A stretch of DNA of 64,000 nt from Poseidonibacter antarcticus. Its GTDB lineage: Bacteria; Campylobacterota; Campylobacteria; Campylobacterales; Arcobacteraceae. Positions 6,454 to 27,949 of this stretch are shown one piece after another. The first letter of the stretch is position 1, and every line of letters begins with the position of its first letter. Both the position numbers and the translations under genes were made by a program. The notes under the pieces are model-generated. The model saw only the letters and a list, made by a program, of their open reading frames with translations, was not told where the DNA came from and ran no database searches. Location: contig NZ_RCWF01000003.1 in NCBI RefSeq assembly GCF_003667345.1, forward strand, positions 124,001-188,000, in the 5' to 3' direction.

Positions 6454-6990
6454 ATGTATAATAAAGTAATTATGGTAGGGAATTTAACAAGAGATATTGA
6501 ATTAAGATATTTACCATCTGGTGCAGCAATTGCAAAATCTGCTATTGCAACATCATACAAGTTTAAATCTGCATCTGGAGAACAAAAAGACGAAGTTTGT
6601 TTCTTGGATTTTAATATGTTTGGAAGATCTGCTGAAGTTGCTAATCAATACTTACGAAAAGGTTCTAAAGTTTTATTAGAAGGTAGACTTGTATTTGAAC
6701 AATGGACTGCTCAAGATGGAACTAATAGAAATAGACACTCTTTAAGAGTTGAAACTATGAAAATGTTAGATTCAAAAAGTGATTCAATGAATAATAATGC
6801 TGGTGGTAACCAAGGTTATAATCCTCAAGGATCGTATAATCAGCCAGCACAAAATCAATATAATAATACATCTAATACTCAGAATACTCAAGGTTCTCAA
6901 AACAACTATGGTGGTAATAATCAAGCATCAACTATGCCTGAGCAAAAAATACCTGAAATAGATATAGATGAAGACGAAATACCGTTTTAA
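6454..6990 (+). CDS. ssb: Single-stranded DNA-binding protein
   Basis: Tetrameric OB-fold protein that coats ssDNA in replication, repair and recombination. The OB domain covers about residues 1-110, beginning YNKVIMVGNLTRDIELRY. A low-complexity Asn/Gln/Gly-rich linker follows (about 112-160), and the acidic tip DIDEDEIPF (170-178) is the docking peptide for partner proteins. It lies between the S6 and S18 genes, which ties its expression to ribosome synthesis. Confidence 0.98.
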   Translation: MYNKVIMVGNLTRDIELRYLPSGAAIAKSAIATSYKFKSASGEQKDEVCFLDFNMFGRSAEVANQYLRKGSKVLLEGRLVFEQWTAQDGTNRNRHSLRVETMKMLDSKSDSMNNNAGGNQGYNPQGSYNQPAQNQYNNTSNTQNTQGSQNNYGGNNQASTMPEQKIPEIDIDEDEIPF

Positions 6991-7008
6991 CATATAAAGG
7001 AAAACGAC

Positions 7009-7266
7009 ATGGCTGAAAGAAGAAAGTACGGAAAAAAATATTGTAAATATACTGAAATGAAAATTGATTTCATTGATTATAAAAATTCTGATTTATTAAA
7101 GATTTCTATGAGTGAAAGAGGTAAAATTATGCCTAGAAGACTTACAGGAAACTCTAAAAATTCTCAAGAAATGGTAGAAAAAGCAATTAAAAGAGCAAGA
7201 CATATGGCATTAGTTCCATATATTGTTAATACTAAAAATATTACAGATCCAGCTTTTTCTAGATAG
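7009..7266 (+). CDS. rpsR: 30S ribosomal protein S18
   Basis: S6 partner in the 30S platform. The 85 residues contain the conserved [17 protein letters not shown] segment and the [12 protein letters not shown] rRNA-binding stretch. An AAAGGAAAACGAC leader supplies the SD. It is the last gene of the S6-SSB-S18 operon, closed by a strong terminator just downstream. Confidence 0.98.
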
Positions 7267-7282
7267 TATCTAGTTAAAGTTT

Positions 7283-7321
7283 AAAAAAAAGGGAAGATGC
7301 ATATGCATCTTCCCTTTTTTT
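7283..7321. terminator. Intrinsic terminator after rpsR (bidirectional)
   Basis: A perfect 24-base palindrome (GGGAAGATGCAT at 7291-7302 and its complement at 7303-7314) flanked by eight A on the left and seven T on the right. It ends the rpsF-ssb-rpsR transcript and is symmetric enough to stop minus-strand transcription from cysS as well. Confidence 0.93.
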
Positions 7322-7348
7322 ATGTCTGAATAAACTATATTTAATCAA

Positions 7349-7376
7349 AAAAGGTTTAGAATATTCTAAACCTTTT
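7349..7376 (-). terminator. Palindrome spanning the cysS stop codon
   Basis: A perfect 28-base inverted repeat centred at 7362/7363 (left arm AAAAGGTTTAGAAT). The last codons and stop of cysS (stop at 7366-7368) form one arm, so the terminator hairpin is built partly from coding sequence. On the minus strand it is followed by TTTT. Confidence 0.65.
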
Positions 7377-8769
7377 CCCAAACAACACCTGCTGGTGTAT
7401 CCATAAGAGAAATACCTAAGTTAGATATTTCATCTCTTACTTTATCAGCAGTATCAAAATCTTTTGCTTTTTTTGCTTCTGTTCTCTTTTCTATTAGTTC
7501 TTCTATTTCAGTTTTTTCTTCATTTGATATTCCAAATTGAAAATATGAATAAGCATCGTTATTTCCAATTCCAAGAACTTCTGAAATAAATTCTATATTT
7601 GCAACAAGTTCTTTTTTTAATGCTTTATCTTTTGGATTAATATCAAGTTTATCATTTGCAGATGAAATCATTTCATCAATAAAAGATATTGCTTTTGATG
7701 TATTTATATCATCATTTAAAGCATCAATTATTTTATCTTTGAACTCTTTATTTACCTCACTTAAAGCTACTCCATAAACTCTTTTTTTAACTCTATACAG
7801 TTTATCTAGTCGCTTTTTTGATGAAAGTAAATCTTCTTCATTAAAGTTAAAATCAGTTCTATAATGTGCTGTTAATAAATAAAATCTAATAACTTCTCCA
7901 CTATAAGATTTAAGTACATCTTTTAAGAAAAATGAATTACCAAGTGATTTACTCATTTTTTCACCATCAATATTAACAAAACCATTGTGCATCCAGTATT
8001 TTGCTATTTCTTGATTTGATGAACATCTTGTTTGGGCTGCTTCATTTTCATGATGAGGGAAAAGTAAATCAGCCCCACCACCGTGAATATCTATTTGATA
8101 AGGTGTATTTTTATATGCAAGATGTTTTTCAATCATAGCTGAACACTCAATATGCCAACCAGGACGTCCATTTCCAAAACTTGCTTCAAAAACTACATCT
8201 TCATCTTTAGCAAATTTCCATAGTGCAAAATCAGAAGAGTTTCTTTTTTCAGTATTAATTTCAACTCTTGCTTGTGAATTCTCATCACTTGCACGATGAG
8301 AAATACATCCATAAGTTGAGTCTTTTGATGTATCAAAGTAAACACCATTTGAAATTACATAAGCTATGTTTTTTGAGATTAGGTTATTAATCATCTCTTT
8401 CATAACTTCTAAGTTTTGTGTAGCTTTTGGTTCTAGTGTATTATCTAGAACGTTTAAGGCTCTCATATCAGCTTTATAGGCATTAATATATTCACTTGTA
8501 ATATCTTCTAAGGTTCTAGATGTTTGATACATCTTTTTTATGATTTTATCATCTATATCTGTAAAATTTTTTGTCATTGTTACTTCATAGCCATTTATTT
8601 TTAAAACTCTATGAAGTAAATCAAAGGCAATAGCTGATCTTGCATGACCTAAATGTGAATCATCATAAACTGTTGGTCCACATACGTAAATCTTTGCTTT
8701 TTTATCTTCTATTGACTGAAATTCAACTTTTTCTTTTTTTACTGAATCATAAATATATATCTTTTTCAT
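7366..8769 (-). CDS. cysS: Cysteinyl-tRNA synthetase
   Basis: Class I aminoacyl-tRNA synthetase charging tRNA-Cys. C30 in VCGPTVYD begins the zinc site, HLGH (39-42) is the HIGH-motif equivalent, GWHIECSAM is the second zinc element, HHENE the third, and KMSKSLGN lies at about 268-275. The length (467) matches the bacterial enzyme (461 in E. coli). It begins one base after the nusA stop, so the two are cotranscribed. Confidence 0.98.
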   Translation of the reverse strand: MKKIYIYDSVKKEKVEFQSIEDKKAKIYVCGPTVYDDSHLGHARSAIAFDLLHRVLKINGYEVTMTKNFTDIDDKIIKKMYQTSRTLEDITSEYINAYKADMRALNVLDNTLEPKATQNLEVMKEMINNLISKNIAYVISNGVYFDTSKDSTYGCISHRASDENSQARVEINTEKRNSSDFALWKFAKDEDVVFEASFGNGRPGWHIECSAMIEKHLAYKNTPYQIDIHGGGADLLFPHHENEAAQTRCSSNQEIAKYWMHNGFVNIDGEKMSKSLGNSFFLKDVLKSYSGEVIRFYLLTAHYRTDFNFNEEDLLSSKKRLDKLYRVKKRVYGVALSEVNKEFKDKIIDALNDDINTSKAISFIDEMISSANDKLDINPKDKALKKELVANIEFISEVLGIGNNDAYSYFQFGISNEEKTEIEELIEKRTEAKKAKDFDTADKVRDEISNLGISLMDTPAGVVWEKV

Positions 8770-14956: not shown

Positions 14957-15277
14957 CTATTTACAATCAAGATCTTCACTATTTTTATTATATCTATCCA
15001 TATGGATAAATCCAATACACGTTTTATTTAGATTTTTATCATAGAATCTAACTTTATATACTTTACTTTTATATCTAGTTTCTTTATCTTCAACTTTTAA
15101 TTTATTTATAACCTCTAGATTTTTTATATCTTTATGACCTAATGTTACTAAAATTTCAGTAATTTTTTCTTCTTTTAAAGTTTTAAGTGTCATAAATACT
15201 GCGAAACCTGCTAATATTAAAACTATTATTATGATAATAGTTTTTTTTGGTAATTTTCTTACTTCATTATTTTTCAT
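14957..15277 (-). CDS. Small single-pass membrane protein, unknown
   Basis: A 106-residue protein of no recognised family. A charged start (KNNEVRKLPKK) precedes a membrane helix at about 13-30, leaving a basic, probably periplasmic domain of about 75 residues. Its start overlaps the carbonic anhydrase end by 11 bp and its stop lies 7 bp before mqnE, so it is translated as part of that operon. No catalytic motif is visible. C91 and C105 are the only cysteines. Confidence 0.65.
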   Translation of the reverse strand: MKNNEVRKLPKKTIIIIIVLILAGFAVFMTLKTLKEEKITEILVTLGHKDIKNLEVINKLKVEDKETRYKSKVYKVRFYDKNLNKTCIGFIHMDRYNKNSEDLDCK

Positions 15278-15920
15278 TAATATCTTCTATTAGTGGCATA
15301 AATGAACATTCTTCACCATCGTAATATTCTATAGTACCATCTTCAATTCTATAATACCAACCATGGATTTGTAATTCACCATTTTTAATTTTTCTTTCAA
15401 CATCAGGAAAAGTAAGTAGATTTTCTAATTGATGTACTACAGAAATTCGCTCTGTTGCTCTATATAATTTTTCTTGATCACTTTTATCTTGGATTGCTAA
15501 AAGAGTATATTCTTTTGCTCTTTTCCCAAGTTCTAGCCATTTTTTTACGTGTATTAAATCAGGTGAATCACCAACATCATGATATAAACTTTTACATGCA
15601 CCACAATGTGAATGTCCACAGATAATAATATGCTTAACCCCTAATACTGAAACTGCATATTCAATAGCAGCTGAACTACCATGGTAATCTTCATCAGGAG
15701 TATATGGAGGTACAAAATTCCCAACATTTCTTAAAATAAACATATCACCTGGTTCTGTATCAAGCATTAAATCAGGAGTAACTCTACTATCGCTACAACC
15801 AACAAAAAGTACATCAGGTCTTTGTCCATTTTCAACTAATTCTTTAATATTACCTTCAAATTTAGGAAAACTAACTTCTCTAAATTTCTTATTTCCTTTT
15901 ACTAAATCATTTATTATCAT
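15267..15920 (-). CDS. Beta-class carbonic anhydrase
   Basis: Zinc enzyme interconverting CO2 and bicarbonate. The canonical beta-class motifs are present: C42-S-D44-S-R46 and the H103-S-H-C106 zinc ligands in CGHSHCGAC. The 217-residue length is typical. It sits in the middle of the mqnE run, one base after the exported 78-residue protein. Bicarbonate supply for carboxylating enzymes, or adaptation to low CO2, is a plausible role; the link to the neighbours is unexplained. Confidence 0.96.
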   Translation of the reverse strand: MIINDLVKGNKKFREVSFPKFEGNIKELVENGQRPDVLFVGCSDSRVTPDLMLDTEPGDMFILRNVGNFVPPYTPDEDYHGSSAAIEYAVSVLGVKHIIICGHSHCGACKSLYHDVGDSPDLIHVKKWLELGKRAKEYTLLAIQDKSDQEKLYRATERISVVHQLENLLTFPDVERKIKNGELQIHGWYYRIEDGTIEYYDGEECSFMPLIEDINEK

Positions 15921-15921
15921 T

Positions 15922-16158
15922 TTATTTTCCTATTTTGATTACTTTTTGAGATGTAGGAGTTATAATAGTAATTTTATTGATACTATCTGCTTCACTTAAA
16001 TCAACTTCAATTTTATATTCAACTAAATAGTCAATTTTATGACATGAAAATAGTTTTGTATATGGTGACATCTCTAATACTTCACATTTCTTCATATTTA
16101 TAGTAGTTTCTGCAAAAACTGCAGATAATGTAAGTAAACTTATTAATATAATTTTCAT
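15922..16158 (-). CDS. Small exported protein, unknown
   Basis: A 78-residue protein with a signal peptide (MKIILISLLTLSAVFAETT, probable cleavage after A16), so the mature part is about 60 residues, periplasmic, mostly beta by appearance, with two cysteines (in KKCEVLEM and FSCHKID) that could pair. Its start overlaps the BioF-like gene by 4 bp and its end is one base before the carbonic anhydrase gene. No known family recognised. Confidence 0.65.
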   Translation of the reverse strand: MKIILISLLTLSAVFAETTINMKKCEVLEMSPYTKLFSCHKIDYLVEYKIEVDLSEADSINKITIITPTSQKVIKIGK

Positions 16159-17261
16159 TTTAATTCCTTCAAAATTTTACATACTTTTATTAAATCATCT
16201 TCTTTTATATCTACTTTTGCAATAAGTCTAATAATTGCACTCTTAACTGTTGGTTGTCTAATTGCACCAACTAAATAAGATTTTTCTTGTAAAAGTGCTT
16301 GTATTTCTTTTACTCTTTTATTATCTCCTATATCTATAGGAATTATTAAACTATTTGATTTTATATCTAATAATTTGCTTATGATAGTTAAATTTTTATT
16401 TATCTTTTCTTTTAAGGCTTTCTTATTCTCTTTTATAAACTTTAAAGATTCTAATCCAAGTGCAATATCAAACAATGATGGGGCCGTTGAATAAATAATA
16501 GGTTTAGCCCGATTTATTAAAAAGTCTACAATTTGGTTAGATGCTAAAATATACGCACCGTAAGAACCATAGGCTTTTCCTAATGTTCCCATCTTAATAT
16601 GATATTTTGTTGGTTTTATTTTATAATAGTCAAATATTCCAAGTAAATTGTCTCCAATAACTCCGCTACTATGAGCTTCATCTACTATTAGTAATGCTTT
16701 ATATTTTTGAGTAATATCAAAGAATTCTTTAGGTGCCAAATCTCCACCCATCGAATAAACACCTTCAATTGCTACTATATTTCTTCCAGTTCTTTTATTT
16801 TCTAGGATTTTATTTTCTAAATCATTATAATCATTATGATTAAACACAATAACTTGTTCAGGTTTTAAAAGTTTTGTTGCAAGTATTCCACTAGCGTGAT
16901 ATTCTTCATCAATAAATAAAGTATCATTTTTTCTACATAATGCTTCAATCATTGAAATATTAGCAAGAAAACCAGAACCAACTGTTACTGCAGCTTCAAA
17001 GTTATTAGCTTTACATAAGGCATCTTCAAAATCTTTATGAATTTGATTATAACCATTTACTAACATTGATGCTTTGGGACTTGTATATTGTTCTTCAAGG
17101 ACTCTTTCATATGCTTTTTTAAAAATATCTTTATTTGTAGATAATCCTAAATAGTCATTTGAAGCTAAGTCAATTATTGATTTAGCAAATACTTCACGAG
17201 TTCTAAAACGGTTTGATTTTTTAATAGATGATAGTTCTTTTGAATACAAAAAGTTCTCCAT
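16155..17261 (-). CDS. 8-amino-7-oxononanoate synthase-like PLP enzyme (BioF/KBL family)
   Basis: Alpha-oxoamine synthase family enzyme, condensing an amino acid with an acyl thioester; BioF (pimeloyl-ACP plus alanine, biotin synthesis) is the best guess. Key features are the substrate loop NDYLGL (35-40), DEAHSSG (194-200) with PLP-contacting D194 and H197, and the Schiff-base lysine K229 in GTLGKAYG. The 368-residue length is slightly below E. coli BioF (384). No other bio gene is nearby, so KBL or another family member cannot be excluded. It heads the five-gene minus-strand run ending in mqnE. Confidence 0.82.
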   Translation of the reverse strand: MENFLYSKELSSIKKSNRFRTREVFAKSIIDLASNDYLGLSTNKDIFKKAYERVLEEQYTSPKASMLVNGYNQIHKDFEDALCKANNFEAAVTVGSGFLANISMIEALCRKNDTLFIDEEYHASGILATKLLKPEQVIVFNHNDYNDLENKILENKRTGRNIVAIEGVYSMGGDLAPKEFFDITQKYKALLIVDEAHSSGVIGDNLLGIFDYYKIKPTKYHIKMGTLGKAYGSYGAYILASNQIVDFLINRAKPIIYSTAPSLFDIALGLESLKFIKENKKALKEKINKNLTIISKLLDIKSNSLIIPIDIGDNKRVKEIQALLQEKSYLVGAIRQPTVKSAIIRLIAKVDIKEDDLIKVCKILKELK

Positions 17262-17378
17262 AAGTGTTTAGCAATGGTAACGAAAGATTACTAAATAAAA
17301 GTTGAATAATTTAAAAGTAATTATTATGCTAGTTTAATGCTATTAATAGTAGTTATACTCTTTTCACTAATTTTTATA

Positions 17379-17384
17379 TATAAT
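17379..17384 (+). promoter_or_regulatory. Candidate -10 element for the small ORF and AraC gene
   Basis: TATAAT inside TTTTATATATAATCC with no clear -35 hexamer, as is common in Campylobacterota. It lies about 20 bases before the ribosome-binding site of the candidate small ORF at 17405 and about 108 bases before the AraC start. Confidence 0.4.
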
Positions 17385-17404
17385 CCAAAATAAAAGGTGA
17401 AAGT

Positions 17405-17473
17405 TTGATTAAAATCTTTCTTTCTCTTTATATAATGCTAATAGCAATATTTTCCAAGACTTTTAAATATTAA
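17405..17473 (+). CDS. Candidate 22-residue hydrophobic peptide
   Basis: A short frame starting with TTG, with AAAAGG seven bases upstream (17392-17397) and a TATAAT about 20 bases before that. It encodes a Lys-containing, strongly hydrophobic 22-residue peptide (MIKIFLSLY... ending KTFKY) that could span a membrane once. It ends 18 bp before the AraC gene. It may be a small membrane protein, a leader peptide coupled to the regulator, or chance in AT-rich DNA. Confidence 0.3.
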   Translation: MIKIFLSLYIMLIAIFSKTFKY

Positions 17474-17491
17474 TTTATGTAAGATACTCAA

Positions 17492-18328
17492 ATGATGAAA
17501 AATAATAATAGAATTTTTAAAATAAAAGAACTTCCTTTTATAGAATTAAAATATAGTACAACTTTTTATGAATGTTCACAAAAACATTATCACAATATGA
17601 TATGTATTTTAGCTTTAAAAAAAGGTAGTGCAAAATATATTGTAAATGAAAAAGAGTTAATTTTAAAGAAAAATAAGTTAATCGTAATTAATCCAAATGA
17701 AGTACATTATTCTATTTGTGATAAAAAAAATGAAGATTATTATGTAATTTATATAGATAGAAATTGGTATAAAACCTTACAAAATCAAATATTTAATTCA
17801 AAAGACATAATTGCATTACCTAATATAATAGAAGATTTGAATATAAATCAAGAATTTTTTGAATTATTTAATATTTTACGAGATAACAATGATGTTATAG
17901 AAAAAGAGTTAAAGGTATTTAATTTTTTTAAAAATATCTTTAATAAATATATTGAAGAAAAGATATTTTTAAAAATTGATGAAACTACTAAAATTGCAAA
18001 AGAGTTTAAAGAATATATTGAAGAAAATATATCTTCAAAATTAACTTTGTCAAAAATTGCAAAAAAATTAAATGTAAGTCCTTATCATATTATTAGAATT
18101 TGTAATCAAGATTTTGGCTTATCGGCAAATGCGTATATAGTTAATAAAAGAGTTCATAGAGCAAAAAAATTAATTAGCGATGGTGTTGATATTTCCCAAG
18201 CTGCTGTTGACGTTGGTTTTTATGATCAAAGTCATTTAACAAATGTTTTTAAAAAAGTTTTTGCTTTAACACCAAAAGCTTATCAAAATGATATACAAAT
18301 AAGTATAAAAAAGGGTAGAGATGAATAG
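17492..18328 (+). CDS. AraC family transcriptional regulator
   Basis: A 278-residue regulator. The N-terminal half is a cupin-like sensor domain with a HYH motif (32-34) and H72 in NPNEVHYS. The C-terminal half (about 165-270) is the AraC double helix-turn-helix: LTLSKIAKKLNVSPYHIIRIC, then a second helix pair ending in the family signature DVGFYDQSHLTNVFKKVFALTP. Two adjacent ATG codons are possible starts; neither has a strong SD. It overlaps the MFS transporter gene by 8 bp, so it almost certainly controls that transporter. The ligand is unknown. Confidence 0.92.
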   Translation: MMKNNNRIFKIKELPFIELKYSTTFYECSQKHYHNMICILALKKGSAKYIVNEKELILKKNKLIVINPNEVHYSICDKKNEDYYVIYIDRNWYKTLQNQIFNSKDIIALPNIIEDLNINQEFFELFNILRDNNDVIEKELKVFNFFKNIFNKYIEEKIFLKIDETTKIAKEFKEYIEENISSKLTLSKIAKKLNVSPYHIIRICNQDFGLSANAYIVNKRVHRAKKLISDGVDISQAAVDVGFYDQSHLTNVFKKVFALTPKAYQNDIQISIKKGRDE

Positions 18329-19505
18329 TTTAAATTTATTAGATAGAAATAAAAATTTTAATATTTTATTAGCAGGAATTATAGGGCTTTTTATTGGTGT
18401 TGGAGTGGCAAGATTCTCTTATACGTCTCTTTTACCTTCAATGTTAGGAGATGAGACTTTATCTTTAACTTTTTCAGGAGTATTGGCATCTTTAAATTAT
18501 GTTGGTTATTTGGGTGGATCAATTTTTGCAATTTTCATAAAAGATATAAATACTAAAGTTAAATATTTTCGTATAGGAATAGTCCTTTGTATTTTGACAA
18601 CTTTAATTATGGGTATTACAACTAATGAAATATTATGGATAATTGGTAGAATTATTGCTGGGTTTGGTGCTGCAATGGCATTAGTCGTTGGTGCTGCTAT
18701 TGTTATGACAAAACTAAATTATAATGATAAAACAAAAGCAATGGGAATATATTTTTCAGGAATTGGGGGTGCTTTAGCCTTATCTGATATTATAAGTAGA
18801 TATGTATTATCTATTTCTTCATGGCAAACTTCATGGATTGTTCTTACGATTATTGGTACACTTGTGACATTTTATCCTTTATATATATTATCTTTTGATA
18901 AAAAAATTAATGCACATAATGAAAAACATCCAATAAACAAATCTTTATTTTCACCTTTTGTTGTAATTTTAATCGCTGCATATTTTACAGAAGGTGTTGG
19001 TTTTGTAATTCAAGGTACTTTTCTTCCTACAATTTTAAAATCAATTCCAGGATTAGAAACAGTTGCTGGATTATCTTGGCTTCTTGTAGGACTTGCAGGA
19101 ATTCCTGCTGCTATTATTTGGATGAAATTAGCACATAAATATGGAAGTGTTAATGTAATTATTATTGCAATGTCTATTCAAATTGTTGGTATCTTAATAC
19201 CTACTATGACTACAAATATGTACTTAAATCTTTTTTGTGGAATATTATATGGAGGAACATTTACAGGACTTGTAGCATTGTTTATGAATCTTGGTGGAAA
19301 ACTTGCAGGGAAAAATCCAGTTATGTTAATGGGCGCTTTAACAACTGCTTATGGAATAGGGCAAGTAACAGCCCCTCTTTATGCAGTAAGTTTAACTCAA
19401 TGGACTGGAAACTATGACTATGCATTATACTTAACAGCTGTAATAGTTTTATTTGGAGTAGTATTACTTTTAGGAGCAAAAAAATTTAAAAGTTATGTTT
19501 CTTAA
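18321..19505 (+). CDS. MFS transporter, YbfB/YjiJ-type
   Basis: A 394-residue major facilitator with about 12 predicted membrane helices. The first helix contains GVGVARFSYTSLLPSML, the signature of the YbfB/YjiJ group of putative exporters, and an RIIAGFGAAMALVVGAA segment resembling motif C follows in helix 4-5. Substrate unknown. It is translationally coupled to the AraC regulator, typical of an inducible efflux module. Confidence 0.88.
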   Translation: MNSLNLLDRNKNFNILLAGIIGLFIGVGVARFSYTSLLPSMLGDETLSLTFSGVLASLNYVGYLGGSIFAIFIKDINTKVKYFRIGIVLCILTTLIMGITTNEILWIIGRIIAGFGAAMALVVGAAIVMTKLNYNDKTKAMGIYFSGIGGALALSDIISRYVLSISSWQTSWIVLTIIGTLVTFYPLYILSFDKKINAHNEKHPINKSLFSPFVVILIAAYFTEGVGFVIQGTFLPTILKSIPGLETVAGLSWLLVGLAGIPAAIIWMKLAHKYGSVNVIIIAMSIQIVGILIPTMTTNMYLNLFCGILYGGTFTGLVALFMNLGGKLAGKNPVMLMGALTTAYGIGQVTAPLYAVSLTQWTGNYDYALYLTAVIVLFGVVLLLGAKKFKSYVS

Positions 19506-19518
19506 ATTAATTAAGTAT

Positions 19519-19560
19519 TAAATGTTAAAATAATATATATAATATGTGTTTTAACATTTA
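19519..19560. promoter_or_regulatory. 12-bp inverted repeat flanking a TATAAT, upstream of the DUF2868-like gene
   Basis: TAAATGTTAAAA (19519-19530) is repeated in inverted form at 19549-19560, with an 18-base spacer containing TATAAT (19538-19543). The right arm runs into the AAAGGAAAG SD of the gene at 19572. It could be an operator around the -10 element or a terminator for the MFS gene; the lack of a U-tract favours the former. Confidence 0.45.
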
Positions 19561-19571
19561 AAAGGAAAGAA

Positions 19572-20792
19572 ATGAACTTAAGTGTATATATACGAAGAAG
19601 AAAAAACTTAAGTGATTTAGACTTAATTGATTTATCCAAAAGTAAGTATAACAAAGAAAAAGATGATTATAAGAAATTAATAAAAATTTCAGATGATTTA
19701 AATAAAAATAAAAATCAGGAAATATTCAAGTATATTTATTTTTTTATACCTATTATTTTGTCATTAATTTTGTCTTTAGGATATGTAGATAAAAGTACTA
19801 ATCAAATCAATATTTTATTTTTTATATTAGTGATTATTATCATACCTTTTGGATTAATGACTATTTCACTTGTAGGTATTCTATATAAAAGAAGTTCAAA
19901 TTCATGTTTTAGTTTTATTACAGAAAAAATACAAGATGAAATTGTAAAAGAAGGAATAAAAAAAGTTTCTTGCTTTTATTTACAAGGTATATCTATTATT
20001 TTTTCAGTTTTATCTATAGTTATATTATTGTTTTTAACAGCAATTGAAAGTTATAAATTTTATTTTGCAACTACATGGCTTAGTAATAATTTCTTTACTT
20101 CTATAATAGATTTTTTTTCCTATCCAATAAAAATGATTTTTCCAGGTCTTATTCCTAGTCATGAATTAATAATTGAATCATCTAAAAATGCCAGTAGTAA
20201 TTCTATTTGGTTATGGTTTCTTATTAGTTTGCTTGTTTTTTGGATTTTAATACCTCGAACAATAAGTTTGATTCTTGCTTTTTATTTTTCACAAAAGGCA
20301 CTAAAAAATTCTTTTTTATATAATAGTAAATCAAAAAGAATATTAGAATATCTTAAGCCAAAAATCACAACTACAGATTATGAAAAAGAAGAAATTTACA
20401 ACTCTTCTTTGAAAAGAAAAAATGGTAGTATTGATATAAAAAATACAAAGGAACAAATGGAATCTAAGTATTCAAAAATTTTACTTTATTCATTAAATGA
20501 AAATGCAATAAATGCAATAAAAAATGATGAAAGATATCTAAATATTGATATTGAAAGTTATCATAGAAATATGAATTTTAAAGATTTTACTTCTAATGTT
20601 TTAATTATAATAAATGTCCAAAGTTCACCTAAAATGATAGCTATAAATATGATGAGAAAATTAAGCCATTGTTCTTTATATTTATGTTTTGTAGATGATA
20701 ATGGATCAGAAGTTTTTGAAGATTCAAATATATTAGAGTGGAAAAGATTTTTAAAAGAAAAAGAGATAAATATTGAGCTTCCAAATGAATAA
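19572..20792 (+). CDS. DUF2868-like membrane protein
   Basis: A 406-residue integral membrane protein with hydrophobic segments at about 52-71, 80-104, 137-157 and 212-238. FATTWLSNN (165-173), PGLIPSHELIIES (191-203) and WLWFLISLLVFWILIPR (213-229) match my memory of DUF2868 hallmarks (a Trp-rich helix ending in a Leu-Pro-Arg-like motif). The last 80 residues form a soluble alpha/beta-looking domain. It overlaps a GTPase gene whose C-terminus looks like DUF3482, and these two families are commonly adjacent in Proteobacteria. Function unknown. It has an AAAGGAAAG SD. Confidence 0.72.
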   Translation: MNLSVYIRRRKNLSDLDLIDLSKSKYNKEKDDYKKLIKISDDLNKNKNQEIFKYIYFFIPIILSLILSLGYVDKSTNQINILFFILVIIIIPFGLMTISLVGILYKRSSNSCFSFITEKIQDEIVKEGIKKVSCFYLQGISIIFSVLSIVILLFLTAIESYKFYFATTWLSNNFFTSIIDFFSYPIKMIFPGLIPSHELIIESSKNASSNSIWLWFLISLLVFWILIPRTISLILAFYFSQKALKNSFLYNSKSKRILEYLKPKITTTDYEKEEIYNSSLKRKNGSIDIKNTKEQMESKYSKILLYSLNENAINAIKNDERYLNIDIESYHRNMNFKDFTSNVLIIINVQSSPKMIAINMMRKLSHCSLYLCFVDDNGSEVFEDSNILEWKRFLKEKEINIELPNE

Positions 20793-22137
20793 TAATTTAA
20801 AAATAGCAATTATAGGTGATCCAAATAAAGGAAAGAGTAGTTTAGTTTCAACTCTTGCCTATGATGATAATATTAAAATATCAAGTAAATCAGGAGAAAC
20901 AACTATTTCAAAATGTTTTCCTTTAAAAATTGATGATGAAATAATCTATGAATTATATGATACTCCTGGCTTTGATAATTATGAAGAATTATTAGATTTT
21001 AATGATGAAAATAAAGATAAATATACTGATTTTGACTCTTTATTAGAAGCTTTTATAAAAAAATATGAAAATAATGAAGAGTATAAGAAAGATATTGAAA
21101 TCTATAAAATCCTAAGACAAAAGCCTATTATTCTTTATTTAATAAATAGTTCTGAATCATATAGAAGTGAATATCAAAGCCAAATAGATATTATTACAAA
21201 GACAAATCTTCCTTCTTTTGCTATTTTTAATCAAATAGGAGAAGAAGATAATAAACATACTTGGGAAAGTATTACAAAGCTATATTTTATTGATTCTTTA
21301 GATTATAATGTATTAAATTCTTCTTTTAAAGATAAGATAAGATTATTAGAATCAATGAAATTAAAAATAGAAGATAGTAAAATTAAAGAACAACTAAGTC
21401 ATTCTATTTTAATTTTAAATAAAGACTTTCAAAGAAGAATAAAATTTACTTTTGAAGAATTAGTAGATAGTTTTTATAAAATAATTACATATAAAAAAGA
21501 GTTTACATATACAAAGAATTCTCAAAATCATAAAAATGATTTTTTTAAAGATATAAAAAAACAAGAAGATAAATTTTATAATATTATTGCAAAAGAGTGG
21601 GGTTTTTATAATTTAAATAGTGATATTCAAAAGCTAAAAAGAATAGAAATAGATTCAGAGAATTTTACTAAAATCTTTGGTCTTCCTAAATCTACATTAA
21701 TTGCAATTGCAACTTCTTTGGGTGCTGTTTCAGGTGGTTCTATTGGATTTGGTGTTGATTTATTTGGAAGTATGGGCCTTGGTACTTTATTAGGTTCTGG
21801 AATAGGTGCAATTTCTGCTGGGACTGCATCATTAATTGGAACAGAATTAATAAGCAAAAAAACAAAAGGCTTTGGAGTAAAAGAACAAACTGTTTATGGT
21901 CCTATTACAAATTTGAATTGGAGAATGTCTTTATTTACAAAGTTATATCTTTTTTCTGAATTAATTGCGCAAAGATCTCATGCAAATAGAAGTGATTTTA
22001 AAAATCAAGATAATGCAGAAGAAATTTTTGATGACAAAAAAGAAATTTTAAAACTTGCTAAAAAAAATAGTGATACTAATAAAAAAGAGTTAATGCTTAT
22101 TCTTGAAAAGACTTATGAAAGAAGGCAAAAAAATTAA
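20785..22137 (+). CDS. P-loop GTPase with DUF3482-like C-terminal region
   Basis: A 450-residue TRAFAC-type GTPase. The P-loop is GDPNKGKS (11-18), the G3 motif is DTPG (59-62), and G4 is a weak FNQIG in place of NKxD. The C-terminal half has a glycine-rich hydrophobic stretch (roughly 300-350) that could insert in a membrane, then YGPI...NWRMSLFTKLYLF...RSHANR, recalling DUF3482. A TTG at 20773 would add four residues; the ATG at 20785, overlapping the upstream stop by 8 bp, is preferred for coupling. It probably acts with the DUF2868-like protein. Its 3' end overlaps convergent yraN by 4 bp. Confidence 0.75.
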   Translation: MNNNLKIAIIGDPNKGKSSLVSTLAYDDNIKISSKSGETTISKCFPLKIDDEIIYELYDTPGFDNYEELLDFNDENKDKYTDFDSLLEAFIKKYENNEEYKKDIEIYKILRQKPIILYLINSSESYRSEYQSQIDIITKTNLPSFAIFNQIGEEDNKHTWESITKLYFIDSLDYNVLNSSFKDKIRLLESMKLKIEDSKIKEQLSHSILILNKDFQRRIKFTFEELVDSFYKIITYKKEFTYTKNSQNHKNDFFKDIKKQEDKFYNIIAKEWGFYNLNSDIQKLKRIEIDSENFTKIFGLPKSTLIAIATSLGAVSGGSIGFGVDLFGSMGLGTLLGSGIGAISAGTASLIGTELISKKTKGFGVKEQTVYGPITNLNWRMSLFTKLYLFSELIAQRSHANRSDFKNQDNAEEIFDDKKEILKLAKKNSDTNKKELMLILEKTYERRQKN

Positions 22138-22466
22138 AGTGTAATATTTTCAAGTAAATCAATATTAGTAGGTGTAACTATTATGGCATCAATACAATAA
22201 GCAACATTTAGTTTTTTAATTTGTAAATAGTAGTTAAGGCTTCTTTTTATTTTAGATAATTTTGAAGGTGTTATATTATTAATAGCACTTTCATAGTCAT
22301 TTCCTGATTTAACTTCACAAAAGTGATAGATATTATTCTTTACTGCAATAATATCTATTTCACCTAATTTTTTAGCATAAAAATTATGTTCAATTATTTT
22401 GTAGCCTAAATCTTCTAAATAAGATATAGCTCTTTTTTCTGCTTCATCGCCTTTATGTTTACTCAT
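22134..22466 (-). CDS. YraN family (UPF0102) nuclease-like protein
   Basis: A 110-residue member of UPF0102, which has a Holliday-junction-resolvase-like nuclease fold. Visible are GDEAEKRAISYLEDLGY (6-22), GEIDIIA and the EVKS motif, matching the D/E...ExK active-site pattern. The biochemical role is unproven in this family. It is the last gene of the midA-like / response regulator / thiS run, 12 bp after thiS, and overlaps the convergent GTPase gene by 4 bp. Confidence 0.88.
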   Translation of the reverse strand: MSKHKGDEAEKRAISYLEDLGYKIIEHNFYAKKLGEIDIIAVKNNIYHFCEVKSGNDYESAINNITPSKLSKIKRSLNYYLQIKKLNVAYCIDAIIVTPTNIDLLENITL

Positions 22467-22478
22467 AAAAATTTATTC

Positions 22479-22679
22479 TCAACCACCACCAACGAATTGA
22501 AGTAATTCAATTTTGTCGTCATTTTTTGGAATAAAATCATTCCAAGTATCTTTTTTTACTATTTCCATATTAACAGCAGCTGCCATTACTTTATCTCCAA
22601 TTTCTAAGTTTATCATTATTTGTTGTAGTGAAAAAGTATCATCAAAACTTTTATTTTCACCATTTATTATTAATTGCAT
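22479..22679 (-). CDS. thiS: Sulfur carrier protein ThiS
   Basis: A 66-residue ubiquitin-like protein ending in the Gly-Gly pair (FVGGG) that is thiocarboxylated to carry sulfur for the thiazole ring of thiamine. The small size and IELLQFVGGG end are diagnostic. MoaD is the alternative, but the length and MQLIINGENK start fit ThiS. No other thi gene is in the window. It lies between the response regulator and yraN with 12-bp gaps on both sides. Confidence 0.88.
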   Translation of the reverse strand: MQLIINGENKSFDDTFSLQQIMINLEIGDKVMAAAVNMEIVKKDTWNDFIPKNDDKIELLQFVGGG

Positions 22680-22691
22680 TTAATACCTTTA

Positions 22692-23357
22692 TTATTCTTT
22701 TTCATATTCAATCATGTATCCAAGACCTCTTATATTTATAATAAAATCTTCATGTAATACTTTTTTTAGTCTATTAACTTCTGCTCTAATTGTTGCATTA
22801 TCAATATCATTATCTTGCCATACAAACTCTCTAAACATATCATAATTAACAGTTGAATTTCTATATCTTGCAAGAAGTTGAATAATTTGTATTTGTCTTT
22901 TTGTAAGAGTTTGTGCCATATTATTATACAAAAGAGTTAAAGTATTTGAGTTGAAACTATATTTAGAAGAAAGTTTTTTATTTTGTTTTGGAACAATTTG
23001 TGACTGTGTAATTTTATTTATACGTAAAGTAAGCTCTTTAAGATGAAAGGGTTTTTTCAAATAATCATAACATCCAAGTTCAAATGCTCTTGAGATTTCT
23101 TCAATATCTATAAGTGCAGATATAAAAATAGTTGGAACAAGAATACTTCTTCCATGTAATGTTTCTAATACTTCAAATCCATTTATATCAGGTACATTAA
23201 TATCTAATATTAATAGTTCAAATTGATTTTCTTCTTCTAGAATTCTAAGACAATTTCTTCCATCTCGTACAGTTCTTACTTCATGATTTGTTGATTGAAG
23301 ATATTGAGTAATTGATCTATTTAGCATTACATCATCTTCTAATAGTAAAATTCTCAT
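22692..23357 (-). CDS. OmpR-type response regulator, orphan
   Basis: A 221-residue two-domain response regulator. The receiver domain (1-120) has the acidic pocket (E7, D8, D9), phosphoacceptor D52 in LLILDINVPD and the conserved K in YLKKPF. The C-terminal winged-helix domain (about 135-218) contains LTKRQIQIIQLLARY, TIRAEVNRLKKVL and the final IRGLGYMIEY wing. No histidine kinase is adjacent. It is separated by a single base from the MidA-like gene upstream and followed 12 bp later by thiS. Confidence 0.93.
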   Translation of the reverse strand: MRILLLEDDVMLNRSITQYLQSTNHEVRTVRDGRNCLRILEEENQFELLILDINVPDINGFEVLETLHGRSILVPTIFISALIDIEEISRAFELGCYDYLKKPFHLKELTLRINKITQSQIVPKQNKKLSSKYSFNSNTLTLLYNNMAQTLTKRQIQIIQLLARYRNSTVNYDMFREFVWQDNDIDNATIRAEVNRLKKVLHEDFIINIRGLGYMIEYEKE

Positions 23358-23358
23358 A

Positions 23359-24369
23359 TTAACTCCGTTTTACATTTAAAATTTTAAATCTATCTCCCAT
23401 ACCAGTTGGTTCTAGTAATGTTTTAACTTTTTGTGTTTGTCTAAGATAGCTTGACTCGTTTACATTTGCTTTTAAAATTTCTAGCAATTCAATGATTCCA
23501 AATTCTACTAAAGCTTTTAATTGAGTATTAAAAACAATATTATCTATATTGTTATTTTTGAAACAATCACGTAAATGATTAAAATGCACATCATATGTTA
23601 TATCAGATTTTTTATATAATTTTTTTAGGTCTAAATCTTCTTCAAATATTGGATATACCTCATGCTTTTCATAAACTCTTGTAGAAAAGTCATTTCTTGG
23701 GTATCTATCTCCATAATCAAAAGTTAAAAATTCAAAACTTTTTATATTTTTACAAAGTGTATTAATAAACTCTTCATATCCAATTCCCATTTCACCTTTT
23801 GTAATTTGATATTTTTTACAATGATTTATTATTTTTTCATCAACACAATCAATAAACTTGATTTTGTGATTTTCTACAAAGGCTTGTTGTAAAATATTTT
23901 TATCATTTGTATAAACTAATTCACATGAAAACGCATCAAATATTTCATTTGCTAATACAAAAGCATTGTCAAGTTTAACTTCACTTAAATGATCATAATG
24001 TTTTAATTTGATTATATCACCAAATGATTCTTTTATATATTCTTTTTGTTTTTCTTGAAGCTTAGGAAATCTTTCTACAATACTGAAATTTAAAGTATCA
24101 AGAAGTTCAGGTTTAAGAGTATAAATAAATTGAATTACATCAGCTAACAAATATCCATGATGCGCACCAATTTCTAATATTGTAGTATTTTTGGGTAAAA
24201 ATCCACTTTCTATTGTTTGTATAATTTTTTTTGCAATTGCTCCACCAAAAAATGATGAAGTAGAAACAGATGTAAAAAAATCACCATCTTTCCCTATTTG
24301 TTTATATGTAGCATAATAGCCATCATTTCCATACAGCCATTCATTAAAGTATTCACTAAATTTTATCAT
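23359..24369 (-). CDS. SAM-dependent methyltransferase, MidA/NDUFAF7 family
   Basis: A 336-residue member of the DUF185 (COG1565) methyltransferases. The SAM-binding motif is ILEIGAHHGYLLADV (near 65-79), and the YFNEWLYGNDGYYAT start, NEIFDAFSCELV and TFDYGDRYPR are family segments. The human relative NDUFAF7 methylates an arginine of a complex I subunit; a role in respiratory complex assembly here is an inference. It heads a four-gene minus-strand run with the response regulator. Confidence 0.85.
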   Translation of the reverse strand: MIKFSEYFNEWLYGNDGYYATYKQIGKDGDFFTSVSTSSFFGGAIAKKIIQTIESGFLPKNTTILEIGAHHGYLLADVIQFIYTLKPELLDTLNFSIVERFPKLQEKQKEYIKESFGDIIKLKHYDHLSEVKLDNAFVLANEIFDAFSCELVYTNDKNILQQAFVENHKIKFIDCVDEKIINHCKKYQITKGEMGIGYEEFINTLCKNIKSFEFLTFDYGDRYPRNDFSTRVYEKHEVYPIFEEDLDLKKLYKKSDITYDVHFNHLRDCFKNNNIDNIVFNTQLKALVEFGIIELLEILKANVNESSYLRQTQKVKTLLEPTGMGDRFKILNVKRS

Positions 24370-24414
24370 TGTTAATTATAGCAAAATTTGATTGAGTAGA
24401 TAAAGAAAGCGAGG

Positions 24415-24448
24415 GTGTAAATAAAAAGATTTCTCTTTTTATTTACAC
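24415..24448 (-). terminator. Perfect 15-bp hairpin over the ompA-like stop codon
   Basis: GTGTAAATAAAAAGA (24415-24429) and its exact complement (24434-24448) with a TTTC loop. One arm includes the stop (24439-24441) and the codons for the last residues of the OmpA-like lipoprotein. It should end or stabilise that transcript before the MidA-like gene 45 bp further on. Confidence 0.65.
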
Positions 24449-25155
24449 GTATCAATTACTGATTCTTGATTTGGATATAAATAAACTTCAACTCTTCTAT
24501 TTAGGGCCATATTAGTAGCATTATTATTAGGAGCTATAGGTTTATCAAAAGAACAACCTTTTGAGAAAATTTGATTTTGTACACCTGAATTATAAATAAT
24601 ATTACCAACATTTGAAGCTCTTTGTTCTGATAATGTTTTATTATAAGAATGAGTACCTCTACTATCTGTATGCCCCGTTACTTGAACTAAGGTATTTGGA
24701 TATTTTTCAAGTACACTTGTTACTTTTAAAATTTTAGAATTTGCACTCATAGTTGGTGTTGCTGAATTTGTTTCAAACATCATGGCATCTCTAAACATAA
24801 TTTTTACGTAATTATCTGTATTTGATACAATTAAGTCTTGATTTGGGTCTAATGCTGCATTTGGATTATTATTAACATTTGTATCTAAACTGTTAGCAAC
24901 TTCTTTTGCTTGTTGGTCTAAATTATAACCAATAGCTCCACCAATAGCAGCACCTGCTACTGCGCCAATTACTTTATTTCTACTTTTACTTCCACCACCT
25001 ATATTATTTCCTAGAGCAATTCCTGCAAGTGCTCCTAATGTTGTACCTATAATTGCACTTTGATTATTATCTATTGTTTGATTTCCTGTTTTTGTGGCAC
25101 AACCACTAATCATAGCTGCTGCAACAATTGAAGATATCATTAATTTTATTTTCAT
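24439..25155 (-). CDS. OmpA family lipoprotein with glycine zipper (YiaD-like)
   Basis: A 238-residue envelope protein. A lipoprotein signal ends in ISGC (acylated Cys19). Residues 35-85 are a glycine-zipper segment (GTTLGALAGIALGNNIGGG, then GAVAGAAIGGAIG), and the C-terminal domain (about 120-232) is the peptidoglycan-binding OmpA domain with VTGHTDSRGTHSYNKTLSEQRA and NRRVEVYL. It anchors the outer membrane to the wall. The gene is transcribed alone from the divergent region facing pyk. Confidence 0.92.
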   Translation of the reverse strand: MKIKLMISSIVAAAMISGCATKTGNQTIDNNQSAIIGTTLGALAGIALGNNIGGGSKSRNKVIGAVAGAAIGGAIGYNLDQQAKEVANSLDTNVNNNPNAALDPNQDLIVSNTDNYVKIMFRDAMMFETNSATPTMSANSKILKVTSVLEKYPNTLVQVTGHTDSRGTHSYNKTLSEQRASNVGNIIYNSGVQNQIFSKGCSFDKPIAPNNNATNMALNRRVEVYLYPNQESVIDTCK

Positions 25156-25283
25156 TTAATTATCCTTAATATGAATATTGGGGTATTTTACCATATCATT
25201 GTGAAATATTTGTTATACAATTTAGTAATTAATATGTAATAAATTTGTGTTATAATAATGATAAATTAATTAAGGAATTGTAT

Positions 25284-26735
25284 ATGGATAAAAGAACAAA
25301 AATATTAGCAACTTTAGGCCCAGCAAGCCATAGCCTTGAAATAATTGAAGGATTAATTAAAGCAGGTGCAAACATGTTTAGACTAAACTTTTCACATGGA
25401 AGTCACGAATATCACTTAAATACTTTAAATAATATTAGAACTGCAATGAAGAATTTAAATACAACTGTAGGTATATTACAAGATATCTCAGGACCAAAAG
25501 TAAGAGTTGGTGATTTAAAAGAACCTTTTGAACTATTAAGAGGTGATATTGTTACTTTTCAAAAAGATGAGATTGTAGGATATAAAAAAGCTGATAAAGA
25601 GTATGTTGTATCAATAAATTATCCAGATATTTTAAAAAAAGTAAAAATTGATGAATATATATATCTTTATGATGGAACTATTAGAGCAAAAGTTATTCAA
25701 GTTGAAGGTGAAGTAAAAGCTAAAATAGAAAATCATGGAATACTAAGTTCTAGAAAAGGTGTAAACTTCCCAAATACAGTAATTGATATTAATGTAATTA
25801 CAAAAAAAGATGAGAAAGATATTGCGTGGGGTGTTGAAAACCATGTAGATTATTTTGCTATTTCATTTGTACAAAATGGAAGTGATATGCAAAGAGCTAG
25901 AAAACTTTTAAATGGATATAAAGGAAAATTAATTGCTAAAATTGAAAAATTTGATGCAGTTGAAAATATTGATGAAATTATAGAAGCTAGTGATGGATTG
26001 ATGGTTGCAAGGGGAGATTTAGGTATTGAAGTTCCTTATTATGATGTTCCAACAATCCAAAAAATGCTTATTAAAAAAGCAAATACTGTAGGTATGCCTG
26101 TAATTACAGCAACTCAAATGCTTTTATCAATGACTGAAAATGAGAGAGCTACAAGAGCTGAAATATCAGATGTTGCTAATGCTGTATTAGATGGAACTGA
26201 TGTTGTAATGCTTTCTGAAGAAAGTGCAGTAGGGGAAGACCCAATAAATGTTGTTGATACTATGAGTAATATTATTTCAAGAACTGAAGATATTTATAAT
26301 TATAATAAACAAGATAAATTTCCATATTTGGATAAATTTGATGTTATTCAAGCAACTGTTACAAAATTAGCAGATGATTTAAATGCTAAAGGTATTTTAG
26401 CACTTACAAGTTCAGGGAAGTCAGCTATTAAAATGTCAAGATATAGACCAAAAACACCAATCTTCGCATTTACACATAAGAAAAAAATATTAAATTCTCT
26501 TACAGCAATTTGGGGTGTTCATCCTGTTGGTACAATTAAAGAAGCGCAAGCTTCAAAAATGTTTCAAAAAATGTTAGTGTTATTAGATGAAAAAGGTTTA
26601 TTAGAAAAAGAAGGACCTTATGTAGCAACTGTAGGTTATCCTGTTGGAATGCCTGGAAGTACTAATACTATTAAAATATTAACTGCTTCAGAAATTGAAT
26701 ATTATTTAAATTTTAAAGAGAAAAAATCTAAATAG
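25284..26735 (+). CDS. pyk: Pyruvate kinase
   Basis: Converts phosphoenolpyruvate and ADP to pyruvate and ATP. The 483 residues include TKILATLGPAS at the start, FRLNFSHGSHEYH, the active-site signature LIAKIEKFDAVENIDEII (K is catalytic), ARGDLGIE and ATQMLLSM, with the C-terminal allosteric domain from about 350. A TTG at 25245 opens the frame, but TAAGGAATTGTAT places the true ATG at 25284. Convergent with the tolC-like gene across 20 bp. Confidence 0.97.
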   Translation: MDKRTKILATLGPASHSLEIIEGLIKAGANMFRLNFSHGSHEYHLNTLNNIRTAMKNLNTTVGILQDISGPKVRVGDLKEPFELLRGDIVTFQKDEIVGYKKADKEYVVSINYPDILKKVKIDEYIYLYDGTIRAKVIQVEGEVKAKIENHGILSSRKGVNFPNTVIDINVITKKDEKDIAWGVENHVDYFAISFVQNGSDMQRARKLLNGYKGKLIAKIEKFDAVENIDEIIEASDGLMVARGDLGIEVPYYDVPTIQKMLIKKANTVGMPVITATQMLLSMTENERATRAEISDVANAVLDGTDVVMLSEESAVGEDPINVVDTMSNIISRTEDIYNYNKQDKFPYLDKFDVIQATVTKLADDLNAKGILALTSSGKSAIKMSRYRPKTPIFAFTHKKKILNSLTAIWGVHPVGTIKEAQASKMFQKMLVLLDEKGLLEKEGPYVATVGYPVGMPGSTNTIKILTASEIEYYLNFKEKKSK

Positions 26736-26741
26736 TAATAT

Positions 26742-26775
26742 TGTATGTAAAACTTTTATTTAAGTTTTACATACA
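26742..26775. terminator. Bidirectional hairpin between pyk and tolC-like gene
   Basis: A 14-bp perfect stem (TGTATGTAAAACTT at 26742-26755 and its complement at 26762-26775). The loop holds the stop codon of the minus-strand tolC-like gene and the right arm encodes its last residues. It likely ends both convergent transcripts. Confidence 0.65.
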
Positions 26776-27949
26776 TATCTAGTAAAGTTAATTGTCTATC
26801 AATCTCGTAAGTTTTCAAATCTATTGATTTTATTTTTTGAGAGTTTTGTAGTGTTTCTAAATCACTTTGTGTTTTTAGTTGAGCTTCTTTTTCTTCATTT
26901 ATAATTTTTAAGATTGAATCATAAACTTCTAAATCATCTCTTGTAATTTGTAATCTTTCATTAATCATATTGATTTTATCTATACTAGTTTTGAAAAATA
27001 TTTTTTCATCTGTAAGTGTATTTTGTAAATCTAATTTAGATTTTAGATAATCAATTTTTTTACTTTCAATATCATTAAAAGTTCTTGTATCAAATGGTAC
27101 AGATACAGTTAATCCAAATGTTTGATTATTTTCCTTATCTAAGCTTGTATTATCATCTGTATCATGATATTTAGAATAAGTATAATAAGCATTTACACTT
27201 GGTAAATACTTGGCTTTTGTCATATAAGCAAAATTACCTTTTTTTGTGATATCTGCTTTTGCTTTTTTTATTTCTATATTATTTTCAAGATATTCTTCTT
27301 TTGAAAATAGCTTAAATGTTGGTAGTTTAAAAGTAGTATATTCTTTTGATGAAATAGCATTAAAATTATTAATTAATTCTTGTTTTGAATATTTTAAATC
27401 AACTAAAGAATTTTTTGTACTATTTAGTGTTAAAAGAGCATCATCTAAAAATGATGCATCTAGAAATCCATTTAGTACTTGTTCTTTTTTTCTTTCAACA
27501 TCAATTTTTGCATTTTCTAGAGTATATTTTGCTTTTTTTATATTAAGTTTAGTTTTTTCAATATTAAATAAAAGATTTACAGCTTTTTTGATTAATTCTT
27601 TTTGTTCTTGTTGAATTTCTAATGATGCATAGTTATATGTTGATTGGGCATATTTTATAGCTTGATAAATTCCACCACTTTGGAAAATTGGTTGATCTAT
27701 AGAAATTACAGATTTTGATGTTTTGTAATCTTCACCTAAATTTTTTGTATATTTATATGTGATTGGGTTTATCCAATCTTTTTTTAATTTGGAACTGTCT
27801 TCTTTTATTTGTTCTTTTGATAAATCAAATGTCTTCTTTCTAGGTTCTGATAATATTGAATTATCATTTAGAATATCTGAAGCAAAAAGGTTTGTGAAGA
27901 TTAAACTACATAATAGTAGTTTAACCTTGCTTGATTTTATTAAGTGCAT
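26756..27949 (-). CDS. TolC family outer membrane protein
   Basis: A 397-residue protein with a signal peptide (cleavage near LFASD, about residue 24) and long amphipathic helices with the two-fold pattern of outer-membrane efflux proteins (SIDQPIFQSGGIYQAIKYAQ, and the mirror segment VPFDTRTFNDIESKKIDYLK). It is somewhat short for TolC (usually 420-490). No membrane fusion protein or inner-membrane pump is adjacent, so its partner is unknown. The start lies inside the 3' end of argD (29-bp overlap), pointing to translational coupling. Confidence 0.82.
   Translation of the reverse strand: MHLIKSSKVKLLLCSLIFTNLFASDILNDNSILSEPRKKTFDLSKEQIKEDSSKLKKDWINPITYKYTKNLGEDYKTSKSVISIDQPIFQSGGIYQAIKYAQSTYNYASLEIQQEQKELIKKAVNLLFNIEKTKLNIKKAKYTLENAKIDVERKKEQVLNGFLDASFLDDALLTLNSTKNSLVDLKYSKQELINNFNAISSKEYTTFKLPTFKLFSKEEYLENNIEIKKAKADITKKGNFAYMTKAKYLPSVNAYYTYSKYHDTDDNTSLDKENNQTFGLTVSVPFDTRTFNDIESKKIDYLKSKLDLQNTLTDEKIFFKTSIDKINMINERLQITRDDLEVYDSILKIINEEKEAQLKTQSDLETLQNSQKIKSIDLKTYEIDRQLTLLDMYVKLK

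Follow-up and report, generated by a model that had tools for sequence, protein, structure and literature searches.

A diverged DUF2868–DUF3482 gene pair in Poseidonibacter antarcticus and the loss of the canonical G4 motif across sampled relatives of its P-loop protein

The 64,000-nucleotide stretch of Poseidonibacter antarcticus DNA analysed here (hereafter the window) carries two overlapping genes on the forward strand: one for a 406-aa DUF2868 integral membrane protein (19572–20792, ATG start, assigned by Pfam profile), and one for a 450-aa Era/Der-type P-loop NTPase with a DUF3482 C-terminal region (20785–22137), in which motifs G1 and G3 are intact and G4 (NKxD) is lost. The longest open reading frame of the second gene begins at a TTG codon (20773), while the ATG at 20785 gives the 450-aa product ending at 22137; with this ATG start, the two genes overlap by 8 bp (20785–20792), as the original prediction had it. 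Both family assignments proposed there also hold at the Pfam gathering cut-offs, with 57.8 bits for PF11067 (DUF2868; cut-off 26.8) and 57.6 bits for PF11981 (DUF3482; cut-off 29.2); MMR_HSR1 (PF01926) matches the same P-loop protein at 45.1 bits (cut-off 21.9). The pair is already annotated as DUF2868 and GTPase/DUF3482 in public records.

Upstream of the pair lies a perfect inverted repeat (19518–19561, no strand assigned), a possible operator or promoter, with arms at 19518–19530 and 19549–19561 and an 18-bp A+T-rich spacer. The repeat had been described earlier as perfect with 12-bp arms; it is indeed perfect, but the arms are longer, at 13 bp. It exceeds the expectation from base composition, since, when the 72-bp segment was copied 3000 times by a first-order Markov model, only 0.43% of the copies had perfect arms of at least 12 bp with a loop of at most 30 bp. 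The promoter-like TATAAT of the original prediction is present within the spacer (19538–19543), but the promoter part is weak because the hexamer sits in DNA with 88% A+T and a sigma-70 scan of 19300–19700 returned 0 two-hexamer sites, compared to a shuffle mean of 2.4. As for the suggestion that the pair is regulated, the repeat itself is real, but the genome has no second exact match to its pattern, and no comparable repeat was seen by eye in the intergenic stretch before the DUF2868 gene of the nearest relative, from Halarcobacter. We thus discarded the repeat as a regulon operator and retain it as a local element.

The pair occupies a slot between a gene that we take to encode an MFS transporter (18321–19505, forward strand), conserved in congeners, and a presumed YraN-like gene (22134–22466, reverse strand) that lies tail-to-tail with the pair. 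All seven congeners examined lack the pair in this slot and keep the flanking gene order; in six of them the alignments of the flanking genes end only 9–31 bp apart. In the seventh (L172), the slot is occupied by a 1.6-kb open reading frame (6534–8144 of that locus), presumably Kef-type antiporter-like, which indicates that the slot accepts different genes. Within the Arcobacteraceae, 2 of 104 genomes carry DUF2868 by the window query. The pair therefore looks gained, and horizontal transfer into the slot between the MFS and yraN genes is its most likely origin. This is deduced from synteny and patchiness rather than composition, because no recombinase was seen by eye in the open reading frame listing for 15000–27000 of the window and the GC contents of the two genes (0.21 and 0.23) fall within those of their neighbours (0.20–0.29). 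A further interval, between a response regulator gene and the next gene (22692–24369), is also variable among congeners: L172 has a 1.9-kb open reading frame there, which we take to resemble a FIST/histidine-kinase protein, and the window has none of this kind.

In the window DUF2868 protein, the PF11067 match is confined to residues 138–273, corresponding to positions 33–175 of the 315-position profile. The protein has four hydrophobic segments, which begin at residues 51, 81, 140 and 217. Lysine and arginine make up 13 of the 50 N-terminal residues and only 3 residues of the 58-residue loop between segments 3 and 4; by the positive-inside rule of membrane topology, both termini are probably cytosolic. 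Structure comparison with the AF2 single-chain model (pLDDT 85, pTM 0.66) indicates that the C-terminal domain (about residues 297–406) is alpha/beta and Rossmann-like. The 50 structural matches listed for this domain include 18 Rag/Gtr, septin or EngB GTPases, whose alignments span about residues 294–406, but the scores of flavodoxins, response regulators, TIR and SM proteins are similar (Z of about 5.5–7). The best Foldseek match has an E-value of 0.47, and profile comparison gives a probability of 1.4% for kinship of the domain with the partner G domain and 2.0% for the whole alignments. A pseudo-GTPase fold is thus kept as speculation only, the structural matches being mixed and profile kinship unsupported. 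The helical matches, to STAG1 (Z 8.3) and to TolQ and ClyA (both about 7), do not rise above noise according to the note supplied with the tool. The C-terminal domain also carries a W-E-P-P motif, which is a trait of the present alignment rather than of the Pfam definition of DUF2868: 64 of 73 aligned members read WEPP, and the site reads QSSP in the window protein and ENEP in the Halarcobacter relative (L081).

The G domain of the P-loop protein aligns with the Era structure over 167 residues (Z 15.9, rmsd 3.7) and with Der by profile comparison (5e-17), and the list of structural matches is dominated by Era, Der and ribosome-assembly GTPases. In the AF2 single-chain model (pLDDT 86, pTM 0.85), the G domain is followed by two long helices, a Gly/Ala-rich hydrophobic stretch, a beta hairpin and further helices. 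The glycine-rich segment noted in the original prediction corresponds to about residues 302–352 (21688–21840, forward strand), which are conserved as a hydrophobic stretch with a mean hydropathy of 1.04 and about 41% Gly+Ala across 79 aligned members. It is a candidate membrane-inserting hairpin, but because model pLDDT falls below 50 at residues 317–348, its entry into the membrane is conjectured from composition.

We then compared the distribution of the two families. DUF3482 and DUF2868 each exceed their cut-offs in 11 of 298 sampled Campylobacterota genomes, and the 11 genomes are identical (hypergeometric 3e-20, a value that ignores kinship); at E ≤ 0.001, DUF3482 extends to 14 of the 298 genomes, the 3 additional matches being weak and partial. 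The HMM search and the Campylobacterota neighbourhood survey proposed earlier therefore found both the similarity and the adjacency: the genes are adjacent in DUF2868–DUF3482 order in 10 of the 11 genomes having both. In the exception (G126), about 35 kb of the same contig separate them, so the tight linkage is not absolute. This genome also encodes a second, diverged DUF3482 protein whose DTPG motif is broken (NTPPF; L066, 11995–13275), about 1.5 kb from the intact DUF3482 gene.

For a broader view, a motif scan of named genomes yielded 463 proteins related to the P-loop protein, and the 80 best were retained; these loci cover Campylobacterota, Gammaproteobacteria and Desulfuromonadales. Two P-loop/DTPG peptide patterns served to pick them, so the sample leans towards intact G1 and G3 and neither way on G4, and adjacency was not selected for because the loci were chosen by the P-loop protein alone. 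A DUF2868 gene lies directly upstream on the same strand at 77 of the best 80 loci, mostly with an overlap of 1–20 bp; the 8-bp overlap seen in the window recurs in the nearest Halarcobacter relative and is shared by many other loci. The three exceptions are (i) L153, whose longest open reading frame for the P-loop protein overlaps the upstream DUF2868 one by 340 bases, (ii) L150, where DUF2868 ends 82 bases upstream of the P-loop gene, and (iii) L124, the G126 contig, where the genes are apart. The pairing proposed earlier for these families is thus close to a rule. A third partner was considered and rejected, since neighbour clustering over the best 80 loci revealed only local synteny besides the pair, barring the 263- and 349-aa membrane proteins described below and one small membrane protein. 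The latter, about 217–220 aa long, carries the sequence LLLFPHYAPWE, has no Pfam family, and is encoded closely 3' of the P-loop gene in some Sulfurimonas/Sulfurovum-type genomes; it occurs at 4 of the 80 loci in the clustering, and the loci on which it was seen overall are L058 (7921–8574), L121, L136, L143 and L147.

The nucleotide-site motifs were then examined in an alignment of 79 members. This alignment omits L085 (a near-copy of L084) and L153, which has an over-long reading frame; the 73-member DUF2868 alignment omits L085, L124, L150 and L153 as well as L090, L101, L143 and L144, which are truncated. Both MMR_HSR1 and DUF3482 match all 79 members at E ≤ 0.01. Residues N14, K17 and T39 and the DTPGF motif are invariant in 79 of 79, which argues that the nucleotide site is functional; the window protein conforms to the good P-loop and DTPG of the original prediction, with GDPNKGKSS as its P-loop. 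By contrast, canonical NKxD occurs in none of the 79, and the second position of G4 is lysine in a single member. The site mostly reads NxIG, with Gly at the fourth position in 53 members, Asp in 17, Glu in 6 and Arg in 3. The degenerate G4 noted earlier is therefore real in the window protein (NQIG), but its loss is a family-wide trait as sampled and not peculiar to this protein. This makes the label 'GTPase' an assumption that relies on the fold and not on the specificity motif. In EngA, changes in G4 have been tested as altering nucleotide preference, and cation-dependent GTPases of the MnmE, FeoB, Era and EngA type are described as having two Asn hallmarks, both according to the available excerpt of one paper (PMC3466195). 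The first of these, in the G1 motif GxxNxGKS, is present in 79 of 79 aligned members; the second, five residues past the G1 Lys in the K-loop, is replaced in all 79 (Ser in 45, Ala in 34). With one hallmark kept and the K-loop Asn absent, we set aside an assignment of the DUF3482 protein to the cation-dependent GTPases.

Against this background, the window pair is a diverged form of a pair that has been named but not characterised. The window P-loop protein is 49% identical to its nearest aligned relative, from a Halarcobacter MAG (L081), and 23–33% identical to the other members. In the P-loop protein tree, the two group together as a clade whose branch measures 3.55 changes per column, although their exact placement is unsure owing to the long branches, as the tree tool itself warns. 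The window pair and this one Halarcobacter relative are thus an extreme long-branch subclade. Of the 86 P-loop protein columns conserved in at least 90% of members, the window sequence breaks 32 and L081 breaks 37, compared to 12 in the next member; for the 28 such columns of DUF2868, the numbers are 17, 20 and 9. The window pair lacks both W-E-P-P and Asp121. With so many conserved columns broken, the window pair may have changed its function or be losing it, yet both frames are open. Directly downstream of the Halarcobacter pair are two membrane-protein genes, of 263 and 349 aa (L161, 11906–12697 and 12687–13736, equivalent to L081, 7429–9259), neither of which has a Pfam family over cut-off. 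The same genes lie upstream of the pair in a Helicobacteraceae MAG (L105, 2303–4181), on a stretch that also carries what appears, from its sequence, to be a resolvase-like open reading frame. Of the 298 Campylobacterota genomes, 31 have relatives of the 349-aa protein, and most of these 31 lack the DUF pair. Some of the matches sit in open reading frames that are at least about 600 aa long and resemble fusions of both proteins.

Family membership, near-strict pairing and order, an intact P-loop and DTPG, the loss of NKxD and a conserved hydrophobic stretch can all be read from the sequences themselves. For complex formation, topology, membrane insertion and NTP-driven switching, we propose a conditional scheme. 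The two translationally coupled genes would produce one membrane-associated machine, in which DUF2868 would be a four-helix inner-membrane protein with its C-terminal Rossmann-like domain facing the cytosol. The Era/Der-type P-loop NTPase would bind and hydrolyse a nucleotide, not necessarily GTP, and its nucleotide state would alter the exposure of the C-terminal helical and Gly-rich hydrophobic region. The P-loop protein could thereby dock on and switch its DUF2868 membrane partner. The switch might pass on ions, lipids or a signal. An NTP-driven switch of this kind, which docks on a membrane partner of four helices whose Rossmann-like domain is cytosolic, is the reading we favour, although we hold it tentatively, at slightly below even odds.

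Alternatively, DUF2868 could be the conduit of a regulated channel or transporter gated by the P-loop protein, much as the FeoB G domain regulates its membrane part. The polytopic partner has conserved Trp, Pro and Ser residues in the region of the third to fourth helices, and FeoB_N matches 79 of 79 aligned members at E ≤ 0.01. However, the matches to FeoB_N, Der and Era go no further than the G domain that they share, each chain has four helices, and DUF2868 matches no Pfam transporter family at E 0.01, which together leave this alternative unlikely. Somewhat more doubtful is a dynamin-like membrane-remodelling pair, broadly similar to the bacterial dynamin-like proteins that occur as a pair in Campylobacter jejuni. 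This is the remodelling idea of the original prediction, for which, as for its stress module, the analysis yielded no direct support. Bacterial dynamin-like proteins are paired in operons, according to part of one source (PMC6104087). In the P-loop protein, long helices follow the G domain and one Gly-rich region is hydrophobic, and Dynamin_N matches 16 of 79 aligned members at E ≤ 0.01, albeit weakly; but the window protein itself falls below that threshold, only one partner has a G domain, and the best matches are Era and Der.

A bolder reading, which we regard as comparably improbable, is that the whole family is an ATP- or mixed-nucleotide-driven membrane switch with an Era/Der fold and not a GTPase system, that a cytosolic Rossmann-like, possibly pseudo-GTPase, domain of DUF2868 pairs with the NTPase, and that the Arcobacteraceae copies are a re-purposed branch that has lost the W-E-P-P contact site and, in Halarcobacter, is associated with another pair of membrane genes. 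The nucleotide part of this proposal derives from the loss of NKxD in every aligned member while P-loop and DTPG are invariant.

A conflict module (anti-phage or toxin-like) moving between genomes appears very improbable: it would fit the patchy distribution (2 of 104 family genomes), the clean gain into a slot that holds another gene in one congener, and matches of about 3e-7 to the PADLOC LeoA/LeoBC models, but the best stretches of these 28-bit matches (positions 76–200 of 601 for LeoBC and 56–120 of 559 for LeoA) span the G domain region only, the Sulfurovum-type neighbours (PgpA among them) are recurrent local synteny, none of the 6 pattern matches in viral contigs is a relative, phage records gave no match for DUF2868, and only 3 plasmid records carry DUF3482. 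A defence island or phage origin was accordingly rejected, as was plasmid carriage, since two of those three records are chromosome-sized Neisseria records and DUF2868 has a single plasmid record.

A search of the open-licence literature by family names and accessions found no functional study of DUF2868 or DUF3482, although subscription work may be missing. In the available parts of papers on Pseudomonas (PMC12864544, PMC10797017) and Salmonella (PMC12440251), the families appear only as names or list entries. The consulted portion of a Thiodictyon proteome study lists the DUF2868 protein AUB85354.1, in the vicinity of Lon and heat-shock proteins, among those with differential abundance (PMC6413534); being a single row in a single proteome, it was set aside as evidence for a stress link. 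An operon this widespread, with 463 P-loop protein relatives from one motif scan, bears DUF names only, and its near-obligate pairing and missing specificity motif lead to testable statements on which nucleotide is used, whether the partners bind and whether the membrane is entered.

Several known systems resemble the pair in part. YcjX and YcjF of enterobacteria are likewise an adjacent P-loop GTPase and membrane protein, but neither is among the Pfam matches listed for the window proteins or for either alignment. Among other DUF2868–GTPase/DUF3482 pairs, THSYN_RS31240/THSYN_RS31235 on the Thiodictyon plasmid pTs485 has both families in the same order and on the same strand, with ends overlapping by 1 bp rather than the 8 bp of the window. 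YchF/Ola1 offers a precedent, being a G-domain protein with an altered G4 that is described as an ATPase in the available section of one paper (PMC8779481); it differs in having NxxE where most DUF3482 members have NxIG. Finally, the P-loop protein shares with Era/Der-type GTPases the G1 motif GxxNxGKS, T39, DTPG and the fold over residues 3–214, while DUF3482 proteins differ from them in the absence of NKxD and in a different C-terminal region.
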